A DNA stretch of 64,000 nt from Micromonospora sp. NBC_00421 (GTDB taxonomy: Bacteria; Actinomycetota; Actinomycetes; Mycobacteriales; Micromonosporaceae), in assembly GCF_036017915.1 (NCBI RefSeq), contig NZ_CP107929.1, positions 6,685,001 through 6,749,000 on the forward strand. The letters are read 5' to 3'. The notes under the pieces were generated by a model. The model ran no database searches and was not told the origin of the DNA. It worked only from the letters and a program-made list of their open reading frames with translations. Every line of letters starts with the position of its first letter. The first letter of the stretch is position 1. The translations under genes and the position numbers were made by a program. Positions 34,219 to 38,154 of this stretch are shown piece after piece.

Positions 34219-34587
34219 CTACAGCGGTCCGCGCCCGGCCCGCAGCAGCAGCAGCGCGAGCTGGGTGCCGTCGGCCCCCAGCTCGCTGCGGAAGCGTTCC
34301 AGGATCTCCCGTTCCCGGGAGAGCACCAGCCGGGTGCCCCCGGAGGCCATCCGGGTCACCCCGACCTCCTGGGAGAGCGCCGCGCGTTCCTGCCAGAGCG
34401 CGATGAGCGTACGGTCGATCTCGTCGATCCGTTCCCTGATCGCCACGATCCGCTCGGCCGCCGCCGTGTCACCGGTGCCGGTGCGGGCAGCAACCGCTCC
34501 GGCCGGTTCGGTTCCGGCCGGTTCGGTTCCGGCCCGGTCGTCGTGCCGCGCGGGGCCACCGCTGGACTCCACCACGTCAGTCATCAT
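34219..34587 (-). CDS. Chorismate mutase (AroQ fold)
   Basis: 122 residues. Converts chorismate to prephenate, the branch point to phenylalanine and tyrosine. The helical AroQ domain (about 43-120) shows ERIVAIRERIDEIDRTLIALWQERAALSQEVG, with the Arg and Asp of helix 1 and SREREILERFRSELG in helix 3. The first about 40 residues are a low-complexity Gly/Ala/Thr extension with an EPAGTEPAG repeat. GAGGGG 7 nt before ATG 34587 is the SD. A leader peptide rich in Tyr and Phe plus a terminator precede the gene, pointing to attenuation by aromatic amino-acid supply. Confidence 0.9.
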   Translation of the reverse strand: MMTDVVESSGGPARHDDRAGTEPAGTEPAGAVAARTGTGDTAAAERIVAIRERIDEIDRTLIALWQERAALSQEVGVTRMASGGTRLVLSREREILERFRSELGADGTQLALLLLRAGRGPL

Positions 34588-34633
34588 CGTCGTACCCCTC
34601 GGGTCTCGGGTCCGGTGCCCGGATCCCGGGACG

Positions 34634-34666
34634 AAAAAGCCCCGGGCTCTCCGAGCCCGGGGCTTT
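34634..34666 (-). terminator. Intrinsic terminator/attenuator in the chorismate mutase leader
   Basis: On the minus strand a perfect 14-bp stem (34666-34653 with 34649-34636) and a 3-nt loop are followed by a T-tract running to 34634. It lies about 47 nt before the chorismate mutase start and only 15 nt after the leader-peptide stop, the standard position for an attenuator. Confidence 0.8.
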
Positions 34667-34681
34667 CGTAGGTCCTGTCGA

Positions 34682-34747
34682 TCAGGCGCGACCCACGGCT
34701 GCCGGACTCCCGGTGCCGTAGTAAAAGTAGGACCGCCTATCGATCAC
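34682..34747 (-). CDS. Aromatic-residue leader peptide controlling chorismate mutase
   Basis: A 21-codon frame from GTG 34747 to TGA 34682. Its product has the run SYFYYG: three Tyr codons (all TAC) and one Phe codon within four consecutive positions, just after the start of the frame. GGTCCT immediately before these codons pairs exactly with AGGACC just after the stop (plus-strand 34729-34734 with 34671-34676), giving a possible pause or antiterminator stem. With the terminator that follows, this fits ribosome-mediated attenuation responding to charged tRNA-Tyr/Phe. No SD is present; a -10 box 7 nt upstream suggests a leaderless start. Confidence 0.7.
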   Translation of the reverse strand: MIDRRSYFYYGTGSPAAVGRA

Positions 34748-34754
34748 GCTGTCG

Positions 34755-34784
34755 AGTATGCCGACCGGGGGCCGGTCCGCGCAA
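34755..34784 (-). promoter_or_regulatory. Promoter of the leader peptide-chorismate mutase transcript
   Basis: On the minus strand TTGCGC (34784-34779), an 18-nt spacer and CATACT (34760-34755) lie upstream. The -10 ends 7 nt before the leader GTG, so the transcript would start at the leader peptide's first codon. Confidence 0.5.
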
Positions 34785-34839: not shown

Positions 34840-34911
34840 GCAGGGGGCCCGTCCGGCCCCGCCCGGGCGGGGTTCCACCGCACGCGGGCGGGAGCCGGAC
34901 AGGGCCCCTGC
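34840..34911 (-). terminator. Hairpin terminator after the 5'-nucleotidase gene
   Basis: Long arms (34840-34857 with 34894-34911, two imperfect pairs) enclose a second small hairpin CCCCGCCC/GGGCGGGG. The structure starts 8 nt beyond the stop of the minus-strand gene. Confidence 0.6.
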
Positions 34912-34918
34912 GTACCGG

Positions 34919-36769
34919 TCAGCCGAGGCGGGTGATGCGGTCCGCCGCGGTGGGGGCCACCGGCTCCCCGTTGCCCAGGTACGCCACCAGGGCGTCCACG
35001 TCGAAGCCGGGTGCCGTGGTCCGGCCGGCGCCGCCCGCCAGCTCGGTGAACCCGTCCCCGCCGTTGGCGAGGAAGTCGTTCGTGGTGACCCGGTAGCTGC
35101 CCGCCGGGTCGACCGGGCTCCCGTTCAGGGTCAGCGCGCTGACCCGCGAACCGGCCGCCGCGGTGCTGTCGTACGAGTAGGTCAGCCCGGCGGACGGCTG
35201 GAGGATGCGCTGGGCGGTCTGCCCGTTGAAACCGACGAACTGCTGCTCCAGCACGTTCTTGAGCTGTGCGCCGGTGAACGTCTGGGTGACCACCAGGTTG
35301 TTGAACGGCTGCACCGTGAACGCCTCGCCGTAGGTCACCTCGCCCGGCGCCTCACCACCGGTCGACGCCGCGTACGACAGGGAGGCCCGGACGCCGCCGG
35401 GGTTCATCAGCGCGAGCTGCGCCCCGTCACCCTTCGTGTACGCCAGCTGCGCGTCGGCGATCACGTCACCCATCGGGCTCTCCCCGTTGGGCCGGGCGTC
35501 CCGGACGATGTCCGCGCTGATCTTCCCGACCACCCGGTTGGCGATCGGGGCGACCGCCGTGCGGTACTTGTCGGCCAGCGCCTTCGTGCCCGCGTCCACC
35601 AGGGCCGGGTTCTTGGCGAACACGCCCCCGGTCTGCTGCCAGCTGCCGTCGGCGTTGCGCACGCCGTTCTCCACGATCACGTTCTTGGCGGTGATGCCGG
35701 TGAACCGGCCGGTACGCCGGTCCAGCGAGTAGTCGATGTCGGTGACCAGCTGCCCGTTGTTGCCGGCGCTGGTGACCACGCTCGGCCTGCCCGAGGAGTT
35801 CGGCAGCGAGCAGGAGTAGAAGCGGTGGGTGTGCCCGGAGACGACCACGCCGAACTCCGGCCGCAGGCCCTTGACGATGTCCACGATCGGGCCGGAGAAG
35901 TTGGCGCAGTCGGAGACGCCCGGGGTGGTCGGCGGCGCGGACTGGGTGCCGCCCTCGTGCACCAGCAGGACCATCGCCTTGACCCCGAAGAGCTTGAGCA
36001 GGCCACCCCACTTGTTGGCGGTCTGCACCTCGTCGGCAAAGGTGACGTCCTTGATGCCGGCCGGGTTGACGATGCCCGGGGTGCCCTCCAGGGTGACCCC
36101 GACGAAACCGACCGGCACGCCGCCGACGAACTTCACGTCGATCGGGGGCAGGATCGGCAGCTTGGTCTTCTTGTTGATGGTGTTGGCGGCGAGGTAGGTG
36201 AACTTCGCACCGGCGAAGCCGTCGCCGTCCTGGCAGCCGTCGACCGGGTGGCAGCCGCCCTTGTTGATCCGGAGCAGCTCCTTGACGCCCTCGTCGAACT
36301 CGTGGTTGCCGACCGAGCTGACGTCCAGGCCCACCTGGTCCATCAGTTCGATTGTGGGTTCGTCGTGGAACGCGGCGCTGACCAGCGGGGAGGCCCCGAT
36401 CAGGTCGCCGGCGCCGACGGTGGTGGTGACCCGACCCTCGGTCTTCGCCTCGGCACGCAGCTTCTTGAGCCAGGTGGCGAGGTATTCCACCCCGCCGGCC
36501 GGGGTGCCGTTGACGGTGGCGCCGCTGCCACCGGGTGGGTCGATCGCGCCGTGGAAGTCGTTGTAGCTGAGGAACTGACCCTTGACCTCGCCACCCGTCG
36601 CGGTGGCGTACGAGACGGCGACCGGAGCGAGGCCGGCCCCGGGGGCGGCGTCGGTCGGCTGCGTGGTGGCGCGGCCGGTGATGGGCAGGCTGGCCACGAC
36701 GGCCAGGGCGAGGGCCGGCGCGGCGAGGTGACGCAGCACGGCCCGACCGCGCGAGCGCGGTTGACTCAT
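34919..36769 (-). CDS. Secreted bifunctional metallophosphatase / 5'-nucleotidase (UshA-like)
   Basis: 616 residues. A Sec or Tat-compatible signal peptide (about 1-30; RSRGRAVLRHLAAPALALAVVASL) indicates export. The metallophosphoesterase domain (about 55-330) shows FLSYNDFHGAI, VGAGDLIGASPL, SSVGNHEFDEGVKEL and VVSGHTHRFYSC, which supply the dinuclear metal ligands. The 5'-nucleotidase C-terminal domain (about 360-590) has LMNPGGVRASL, the GEAFTVQPFNN substrate clamp and TNDFLANGGDGFTEL. It would dephosphorylate extracellular nucleotides for salvage. GGGAGAA precedes ATG 36769. Monocistronic. Confidence 0.94.
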   Translation of the reverse strand: MSQPRSRGRAVLRHLAAPALALAVVASLPITGRATTQPTDAAPGAGLAPVAVSYATATGGEVKGQFLSYNDFHGAIDPPGGSGATVNGTPAGGVEYLATWLKKLRAEAKTEGRVTTTVGAGDLIGASPLVSAAFHDEPTIELMDQVGLDVSSVGNHEFDEGVKELLRINKGGCHPVDGCQDGDGFAGAKFTYLAANTINKKTKLPILPPIDVKFVGGVPVGFVGVTLEGTPGIVNPAGIKDVTFADEVQTANKWGGLLKLFGVKAMVLLVHEGGTQSAPPTTPGVSDCANFSGPIVDIVKGLRPEFGVVVSGHTHRFYSCSLPNSSGRPSVVTSAGNNGQLVTDIDYSLDRRTGRFTGITAKNVIVENGVRNADGSWQQTGGVFAKNPALVDAGTKALADKYRTAVAPIANRVVGKISADIVRDARPNGESPMGDVIADAQLAYTKGDGAQLALMNPGGVRASLSYAASTGGEAPGEVTYGEAFTVQPFNNLVVTQTFTGAQLKNVLEQQFVGFNGQTAQRILQPSAGLTYSYDSTAAAGSRVSALTLNGSPVDPAGSYRVTTNDFLANGGDGFTELAGGAGRTTAPGFDVDALVAYLGNGEPVAPTAADRITRLG

Positions 36770-36874
36770 GGTTGTTCTCCCAAGTCGTCTTCGGGGGAGC
36801 AGGCGGGGATTTCCCGCGTCATCGTCGCGCCTCGGGGACGAAGATGCCAGTGGGGCCACCGTGACAGCTTCGTC

Positions 36875-37740
36875 TCAGTCCCGACCGACGCTCTCGTCGG
36901 GCGGCAGGAGTGCCGCTGCGCTCGGCGGATGGTGGCACTGCGGGTCGCCGAACCAGGTTTCCAACGCGGCCAGGAGATGGTGGTCACCGTCCGGGCCGAG
37001 CGCCCACGCGACATAGCCGTCCGCTCGGACGAGCAGGGCGCCGGCGGGTGGCGCCGCCCAGCCGTGCACCTGCGCGGCGAGTTTCCAGCCGAGGTTGGCC
37101 GCGTCCTGGAGCCCGAGGTGAGACCGGGCGCACCGACCGCGGGAGCACGTGGGCGGCGTCTCCGGCGAGGAACACCCGACCGCGCCGGTACGAGTCCGCG
37201 ACCCGGGCGTTCGCGGCGTACCTGCGGCGCAGCAGGTGCGGCCCGGCGGTGGTCGGCGCGGCAAGCGGTAGGTCCCGGCCGAGGACCCGGTGCAGGCTGG
37301 CGCGCACCTCCCCGATGCTGACCGGGCTCTCGGCGGCGATCGGGGGCCCGTCCCACTCGATCACCGACACCATCGACACGCCGGGGCCGTGCGGCACCAC
37401 GACGTGGGTGCCGCGTTCGGTGCGGTGCCAGGCGTACAGACCGATACGGTCCCCGTCGGGCAGCACGATCTCGGCGGTGGCGGCGTCGACCGACGATCCC
37501 GGCAGGGTGACGTGTGCGGCACGCGAGACGACGCGCGGATCGGTGGAACCGGAGAACGGAACCCCGATCCTCCGGCGCACCTCGCTGCGGGCGCCGTCGC
37601 ATCCGACGAGATATCCCGCGCGCATGTCGTAACCGCCGTCGGTGCCCTGCACCCGCACGGTCACGGCATCGTCACCCTGCCGCAGTTCGTGCAGCCGGTG
37701 CCCGCGTCGTACCTGGACGCCGAGATCGCGAGCCCTTTCC
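36875..37740 (-). pseudogene. Decayed FAD-dependent aromatic-compound monooxygenase (PHBH/RdmE type)
   Basis: The remnant reads in two frames. From about 37740 to 37150 it matches the middle of an FAD monooxygenase: GYLVGCDGARSEVRRRIGVPF, then GRVFLAGDAAHV. Near 37120-37150 the frame shifts and continues as HLGLQDAANLGWKLAAQVHGW. After that the usual helical region of more than 100 residues is missing and the thioredoxin-like tail (LLVRADGYVAWALG) follows directly. The N-terminal FAD GxGxxG domain is absent; the sequence runs upstream into tandem repeats. So there is a 5' truncation, a frameshift and an internal deletion. The original substrate class is unknown. Confidence 0.85.
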
Positions 37741-37849: not shown

Positions 37850-37920
37850 CTTTGGAGCTGATGACGTCAACGATTCGGGGTTCCCGAGCGGTCGAGTCGG
37901 TAACGTCATCAGCTCCAAAG
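37850..37920. repeat. 18-bp inverted repeat with inner hairpin (cruciform element)
   Basis: CTTTGGAGCTGATGACGT (37850-37867) is matched exactly by its complement at 37903-37920. The 35-nt centre contains a second hairpin, TCGGG-GTT-CCCGA (37875-37887). The arms hold the palindrome-like GATGACGTC. It has the look of a dispersed palindromic intergenic element rather than a simple terminator. Confidence 0.8.
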
Positions 37921-37944
37921 CCTCTGCCGTGACGGCCGGTCCGG

Positions 37945-38064
37945 CCTCGGTTCCGGCCTCGGTTCCGGCCTCGGTTCCGGCCTCGGTTCCGGCCTCGGTT
38001 CCGGCCTCGGTTCCGGCCTCGGTTCCGGCCTCGGTTCCGGCCTCGGTTCCGGCCTCGGTTCCGG
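37945..38064. repeat. Ten perfect 12-bp tandem repeats
   Basis: CCTCGGTTCCGG is repeated ten times without change (120 bp) in non-coding DNA 230 nt upstream of pcrA. Read on the minus strand, one frame would give a Gly-Thr-Glu-Ala repeat, but no gene frame supports it. Perfect identity suggests recent slippage expansion. Confidence 0.95.
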
Positions 38065-38154
38065 CCGGACGGGGTCGGCGTGGCGCCGGTCCGGTCCGTG
38101 GCTCGGTGGTGCGGTGGGCGGAGTGCGGTGGTGGGCGGACTCCGGGTGGTGAGT

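Follow-up and report, generated by a model that had tools for sequence, protein, structure and literature searches.

A predicted Phe/Tyr leader-peptide attenuator before chorismate mutase, conserved across several actinobacterial families

The window analysed here is the whole 64,000-nucleotide stretch of Micromonospora sp. NBC_00421 DNA, and positions refer to it unless the genome is named. On its minus strand, from 34784 down to 34219, lie the hexamer TTGCGC, 18 nt, the hexamer CATACT, 7 nt, a 21-codon reading frame, 15 nt, a hairpin, 48 nt and a chorismate mutase (CM) gene. The frame opens with GTG at 34747-34745 and closes with TGA at 34684-34682; the CM start ATG is at 34587, and the interval 34587-34784 has as its exact limits the CM start codon and the −35-like TTGCGC. 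The first-pass annotation had described a 21-codon aromatic leader frame followed, 15 nt after its stop, by a perfect 14-bp hairpin with a T-tract, and then by CM. All of these are present: the aromatic run SYFYY occupies 34732-34718 on the minus strand, and the hairpin lies at 34666-34636, its 14 perfect pairs leading into a tract of five Ts, of which three still belong to the stem. The features are as follows.

34779..34784, minus strand: −35-like TTGCGC, read directly and invariant in the 30 best-matching genus sequences
34755..34760, minus strand: −10-like CATACT, 7 nt 5′ of the leader GTG
34682..34747, minus strand: leader frame VIDRRSYFYYGTGSPAAVGRA, 21 codons plus TGA, read directly and kept in relatives
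34718..34732, minus strand: sensor codons S-Y-F-Y-Y (TCC TAC TTT TAC TAC) with a near-invariant rare TTT, from codon counts
34695..34719, minus strand: hairpin 1:2, ACGGC-A-CCGG-GAGT-CCGG-CA-GCCGT, proposed anti-antiterminator, from folding and pair counts; it begins within the last Tyr codon
34702..34709, minus strand: antiterminator arm 2, GAGTCCGG, from folding, covariation and ribosome-position folds
34690..34697, minus strand: apical stem 5′ arm, CGTGGGTC, from folding; weak on the wide alignment
34667..34674, minus strand: apical stem 3′ arm, GACCTACG, from folding; weak on the wide alignment
34653..34660, minus strand: antiterminator arm 3, CCGGGCTC, within the terminator 5′ arm, from folding and covariation
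34636..34666, minus strand: intrinsic terminator of 14 bp with a loop of 3 and a T-tract, from folding and a terminator scan
34595..34600, minus strand: GAGGGG, candidate Shine-Dalgarno sequence of CM, read directly
34219..34587, minus strand: chorismate mutase, AroQ type, 122 aa, from Pfam, NCBIfam and the nearest structure, 2qbv

The identity of the downstream gene was borne out by its protein, which matches Pfam CM_2 (PF01817, E 6.6e-10), lies over the cut-off of NCBIfam NF005894, and has as its nearest solved structure 2qbv, an intracellular chorismate mutase (E 2.8e-19). It is a monofunctional CM, with one match to the protein in its own genome, and it was found in all 151 genus genomes sampled. 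Short repeats (GGCCGGTTCGGTTCC units) at 34480-34545 of the window encode a low-complexity N-terminal part of the protein (AGTEPAGTEPAG), which differs between species.

Folding of the region gave z-scores of −4.3 (128 nt) and −4.5 (86 nt), with none of 200 shuffles equally stable, while the antiterminator stretch alone (61 nt) was unexceptional (z −1.5; 14 of 200 shuffles equally stable). A terminator scan of 1.1 kb returned two sites against 0.1 expected, one within the 14-bp hairpin and the other within the leader. The hairpin might be only the 3′ terminator of the upstream 5′-nucleotidase gene, or an insulating terminator, beside which the leader frame is incidental. It does have the form of an intrinsic terminator, and the upstream gene (34919-36859), a nucleotidase by NCBIfam similarity below the models' cut-offs, is on the same strand. 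However, a 21-nt, 86% complementary inverted repeat (34840-34911) sits right behind the nucleotidase stop, conserved promoter-like hexamers lie between that gene and the leader, the leader unit stands before CM in 40/40 family and order loci, and arm 2 covaries with arm 3, as described below. We therefore regard this explanation as very unlikely.

The leader was present in all 90 genus loci read upstream of CM; out of 151, these were the 30 that matched best and the 60 ranked lowest among those listed. A first regular expression missed four of these leaders, which reading confirmed: one has FYFLYG, one FYFPYG, and two carry TAT. Mean column identity among the 30 best-matching sequences was 0.74 upstream of the −35 and 0.99 across TTT and hairpin 1:2; across the terminator it was 0.93, and between the terminator and the CM start codon 0.94. 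A covariance model (R1) built from 33 genus leaders, with matches counted at E up to 0.001 and not all read, matched 298 of 300 family genomes, including 282/282 of good quality, and 188 of 298 order genomes; the two family genomes without a match are 69% and 77% complete. CM lay downstream in 40/40 R1 matches read outside the genus (25 in the family and 15 in other families), mostly high-scoring ones. R1 matched eight places in the NBC_00421 genome itself; the other seven had E values of 6.8e-6 to 0.9, one being the same hairpin read on the opposite strand and four of the remaining six being partial.

A degenerate pattern scan of named genomes found at least 120 stretches, and among the 80 matches listed 54 precede CM (tblastn). 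They include Amycolatopsis, Lentzea and Saccharopolyspora, which with others we take to be Pseudonocardiaceae; Blastococcus, Geodermatophilus and Modestobacter, presumably Geodermatophilaceae; what we take to be Micromonosporaceae; and one Mycobacteroides (L216). Matches attributed to 'Bacillus sp. AZ43' (L191, flagged unverified) and to a Melainabacteria bin (L219) also precede CM, and their sequences look actinobacterial. Among the 26 listed matches without CM, one (L203, Lentzea) is a leader at the end of a sequence; the other 25 come from many phyla, four being actinobacterial, and by reading look like chance matches.

At E up to 1e-4, a second covariance model (R2) matched 86 of 394 genomes of the class; in one large genus (f33/g132), with E up to 0.001 allowed, it matched 58 of 61. 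Twenty class-level R2 matches were read: 11 precede CM, six precede a DAHP-synthase-like gene and three (L316, L326, L327) neither. All 30 f33 loci hold CM, with the motif at the place examined in 29; L370 lies near a contig start. On these matches, the putative Phe/Tyr leader element extends beyond Micromonosporaceae, over several actinobacterial families.

For counts of leader features we pooled 185 CM leaders (90 from the genus, 40 from the family and order, and 55 from named genomes), representing 168 distinct segments. The first-pass annotation proposed that transcription starts on the leader GTG, and held that a start downstream of the frame would speak against attenuation. Such a start appears unlikely, as a [TC]ANNNT element stands 6-8 nt before the leader start in 178/185 (7 nt in 137, 6 in 40, 8 in one), a count somewhat favoured by choosing, where several starts were possible, the one with a −10-like element. 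The remaining seven leaders have, by reading, mostly related hexamers. One of the 185 leaders has a Shine-Dalgarno-like tetramer 4-14 nt ahead of its start. A consensus promoter scan found no site at threshold, so the promoter call rests on conservation. From the position of the −10-like element and the near absence of Shine-Dalgarno sequences, we infer that the leader is leaderless.

Each of the 185 leaders holds three to six F/Y codons. The first-pass annotation had suggested checking whether the leader codons are conserved, and they are: counting back from the final Tyr-Gly, 183/185 leaders have an aromatic codon at −2 and 180/185 at −1. Excluding the 55 named leaders, which were found by a pattern fixing codon −1 as aromatic, the counts are 128/130 and 125/130; the final Tyr was itself part of the search motif and proves nothing. 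F and Y codons swap in the sensor positions, and other codons are rare. W occurs in one of the 185 CM leaders (L216), and upstream of FFYG in two (L322, L323) of three family f8 leaders, which are of mycobacterial type, as is L216.

The near-fixed rare TTT is the least expected part of the element. This Phe codon is present in 184/185 leaders and makes up 219 of their 429 Phe codons, against 6 of 408 in 35 filtered ORFs of the window, the 64 kb from which the codon background was taken. TAT is rare in both sets (10/339 Tyr codons in the window ORFs and 9/462 in the leaders).

Folding from arm 2 through arm 3 gave an antiterminator, a structure that had no name in the earlier note, in which GAGUCCGG pairs with CCGGGCUC and the helix is capped by CGUGGGUC:GACCUACG. 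Arm 2 sits in hairpin 1:2 and arm 3 sits in the terminator, whose 5′ arm, the partner of GAGUCCGG, is common to both structures. We assessed these helices on A3, an alignment of 59 sequences with <93% similarity, aligned without regard to structure. The antiterminator helix was paired in 94.2% of 519 cells and had 29 two-sided cells compared with 10.8 in shuffles, none of 500 shuffles being as high; when it was slid by one to three columns there were at most four. The number of its pairs with any two-sided change was three, which was reached in 96/500 shuffles, so that by this count shuffles were not beaten. The alternative fold that the earlier note had asked for is present, and its arm 2 covaries with arm 3, inside the terminator 5′ arm.

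By reading, arms 2, 3 and 4 change jointly, being GAGTCCGG/CCGGGCTC/GAGCCCGG in Micromonosporaceae and GACTCCGG/CCGGAGTC/GACTCCGG or GACCCCGG in Pseudonocardiaceae. None of the ten outer antiterminator pairs varies within the genus, so they show no covariation there. One pair of hairpin 1:2 swaps C-G for G-C (23) or G-U (1) in 24 of the 59 A3 sequences, and single inner pairs of this hairpin are unpaired in up to 25. On the same alignment the terminator beat shuffles on cells paired (0/500) and did not beat them on its covariation score (102/500), and the apical stem was 63.6% paired, with 20 two-sided cells after a +2 slide vs 17 in register. We attribute these terminator and apical-stem statistics to misalignment through gap placement, but let the figures stand. 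An arm-by-arm motif search found no motif in 5/185 leaders and misplaced the terminator in some, so our counts rest on A3.

The first-pass annotation had instead pointed to a 6-bp pairing flanking the aromatic codons. This pairing, UAGGCG:CGCCUG, does exist in the window, but it is weak in relatives and is not the antiterminator. An ungapped pairing of at least 6 bp between the flanking regions was found in 23 of 33 genus sequences vs 33% in shuffles. The pairing is weakly supported and is not the key alternative structure.

Ribosome positions were mimicked on the 59 A3 sequences by folding with the masked part left out, and six or more pairs were counted as an antiterminator. With a ribosome stalled on the last Tyr codon (masked through arm 1) and RNA made only through arm 3, the antiterminator was predicted in 58/59. 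The terminator was predicted in 59/59 with the ribosome at the stop codon and in 58/59 for free RNA. In the f33 set, the nascent antiterminator was predicted in 29/29. With a stalled ribosome and the whole RNA at equilibrium, the predicted folds contained the terminator in 57/59 and the antiterminator in three. Since equilibrium favours the terminator whether or not a ribosome is stalled, the switch must be kinetic and co-transcriptional; on these models, the antiterminator has to form first and persist for the switch to work, which is the accepted view for trp.

Taken with the conservation of the leader and the covarying antiterminator, these predicted folds largely support the earlier interpretation, and we hold it highly probable that the element is a ribosome-mediated transcription attenuator that senses Phe/Tyr and controls CM. 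The leader, which is predicted to be translated, carries codons for the pathway products; an antiterminator and an intrinsic terminator precede the gene and are mutually exclusive in a kinetic sense, equilibrium favouring the terminator in the models; and the gene, CM by Pfam and NCBIfam, acts in the synthesis of the amino acids sensed. Transcription would start on or beside the leader GTG, and ribosomes would load without a Shine-Dalgarno sequence. When charged tRNA-Phe or tRNA-Tyr is short, the ribosome would stall on the last three aromatic codons and cover arm 1 (ACGGC), which would free arm 2 (GAGUCCGG) to pair with arm 3 (CCGGGCUC) once arm 3 is made; this pairing would block the terminator, and CM would be transcribed. 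When Phe and Tyr are plentiful, the ribosome would reach the stop codon and cover arm 2, and the 14-bp terminator would form. The CM gene thus most likely runs only when Phe/Tyr are scarce. What the analysis shows is the anatomy, its conservation and covariation, and the predicted folds; the start site, the stalling, the direction of the response and the choice of Phe or Tyr as the dominant signal are inferred.

An arrest of the ribosome by the nascent peptide, as in TnaC or Erm leaders, would make the conserved C-terminal residues the sensor, and the C-terminal peptide YYGTGSPAAVGRA is indeed nearly invariant within the genus. Between lineages, however, the frame is shifted against the RNA. 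The xCCGGCTGCC motif lies at offset 15 from TAYGG in 28/29 sequences of the f33 genus (16 in one), whereas in Micromonosporaceae TCCGG comes earlier, at an offset of 14 (by reading) relative to the final Tyr codon. L313 shows another shift, by which the leader ends in PVRLPWSCCLSH instead of PSGCHGRAA, with the same CM gene downstream. These shifts change the C-terminal peptide and keep the RNA, which argues against peptide arrest, and we find it extremely improbable. A metabolite-binding riboswitch or T-box acting on the terminator, with translation of the frame unneeded, would suit the strong conservation of nucleotides across the hairpin region (0.99 for 36 nt among the 30 best matches) but is scarcely credible, given that no Rfam family, T-box included, reached its gathering score either in the leader or in the six related loci searched, and that F and Y codons swap while aromatic identity stays, which translation explains and ligand binding does not. 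Rfam matches in the leader up to E 1 do not include the enterobacterial Phe leader family.

The genome also has a second aromatic leader, before an enzyme of the common trunk of the pathway, which serves as an internal control. A class I DAHP synthase gene (NCBIfam aroFGH) lies at 7134749-7135849 of the genome, minus strand (L331/L332), and about 180 nt upstream of it is the leader VTRSYRWFRQPAAEPVTSP, with a GTG start, a −10-like element and, by reading, a terminator-like hairpin; this leader, too, is apparently leaderless. It holds Tyr, Trp and Phe as TAT, TGG and TTT. A similar Y-W-F leader precedes DAHP synthase in 30/30 genus loci fetched, and all 30 have TAT and TTT, never TAC or TTC, in their first ten codons. 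Some genomes of other actinobacterial families have F/W/Y leaders, for example FWYG as TTT TGG TAT, before another type of DAHP synthase (L310, L312, L314, L315, L317, L318; Pfam was run on two of these six DAHP-synthase-like genes, L315 and L317). TTC and TAC also occur in the leaders of L317 and L318. The leader of the trunk enzyme, DAHP synthase, carries Trp as well, and that of the Phe/Tyr branch enzyme, CM, is with few exceptions without it. A scan for at least three F/Y/W in seven codons, over about 600 nt around the gene start, recovered the CM leader and, among the genes scanned, found another at class I DAHP synthase only; there was none at prephenate dehydratase, prephenate dehydrogenase or the larger class II DAHP synthase, a second class II place (1480339, in two pieces) having been left out.

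Because UUU is kept in 184/185 CM leaders, the 30/30 genus DAHP synthase leaders use UUU/UAU only, and the window ORFs avoid both codons, we tentatively suggest, while thinking it on balance rather unlikely, that the sensor is the rare codon and not the amino acid alone. The attenuators would then read the rate of wobble decoding, and hence tRNA charging and anticodon-loop modification, as a tuned gauge of aromatic-pathway supply common to several actinobacterial families. TTT could also serve RNA unfolding or promoter escape.

PMC11802643 describes E. coli pheL-pheA as a Phe attenuator that has a bifunctional CM-prephenate dehydratase (CM-PDT) as its target and is regulated by charged tRNA-Phe. 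As at the present locus, a leader peptide stands ahead of a gene for chorismate mutase activity; pheL-pheA differs in its bifunctional enzyme and its stated signal, Phe, whereas here the CM is monofunctional and actinobacterial and the leader has Phe and Tyr codons and is apparently leaderless. The same paper describes the C. glutamicum aroR leader, Phe-Tyr-Phe, before aroF (DAHP synthase), where Phe limitation raises transcription and Tyr limitation does not; the leader also appears in PMC4046766. Like our element, aroR is an actinobacterial Phe/Tyr leader, but its target is DAHP synthase (PMC11802643) and not CM. By target, the Y-W-F leader before class I DAHP synthase is the nearer aroR counterpart. 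In a 2014 report by Neshat, the C. glutamicum aroR is said to be leaderless, with its start codon at the transcription start.

RNA-seq of S. lividans gave eight leader peptides (leuL, trpL, ilvL and others), none assigned to Phe or Tyr, and the main text nowhere mentions chorismate, phenylalanine or tyrosine (PMC8079986). Those leaders resemble ours in being short, upstream of amino-acid genes and mostly described as leaderless, some with hairpins and U-rich stretches; several are without a typical terminator (PMC8079986). The M. tuberculosis ilvB1 leader, as described in PMC13236596, is likewise an actinobacterial uORF that carries sensor codons and is followed by an antiterminator and a terminator excluding each other; it differs in sensing branched-chain amino acids. 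A 2005 comparative study (PMC1262725) reports that it found nothing conserved at the RNA level ahead of the Phe or Tyr operons of Actinobacteria; our data contradict this with one such element, in several families and with no Rfam match at gathering score. The first-pass annotation had called a Tyr/Phe-sensing version before a monofunctional actinobacterial CM little described. For CM this agrees with our search of mainly open-access full texts, whose listed results held no report of an attenuator there. Among actinobacteria, however, C. glutamicum already has a described Phe/Tyr attenuator, aroR, on DAHP synthase (PMC11802643), so what is novel is the target gene together with the clades.

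As a mechanism this is classical, whereas the element itself is a new, widely conserved member of that kind. It puts a branch-point enzyme of aromatic amino-acid synthesis under a predicted, testable RNA switch, and the actinobacterial families concerned are known for antibiotic production. Taking the switch out might increase the yield of products derived from Phe or Tyr, and the near-fixed rare sensor codon offers a clean way to ask how codon speed sets attenuator sensitivity.

Two observations concern neighbouring sequence in the window. At 36875-37664, overlapping frames look by eye like fragments of an FAD-dependent monooxygenase spread over different frames, perhaps a gene that is broken. 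At about 37880-38100 there is a tandem repeat that gives GTEAGTEA or ASVPASVP in opposite frames, without a clear gene.
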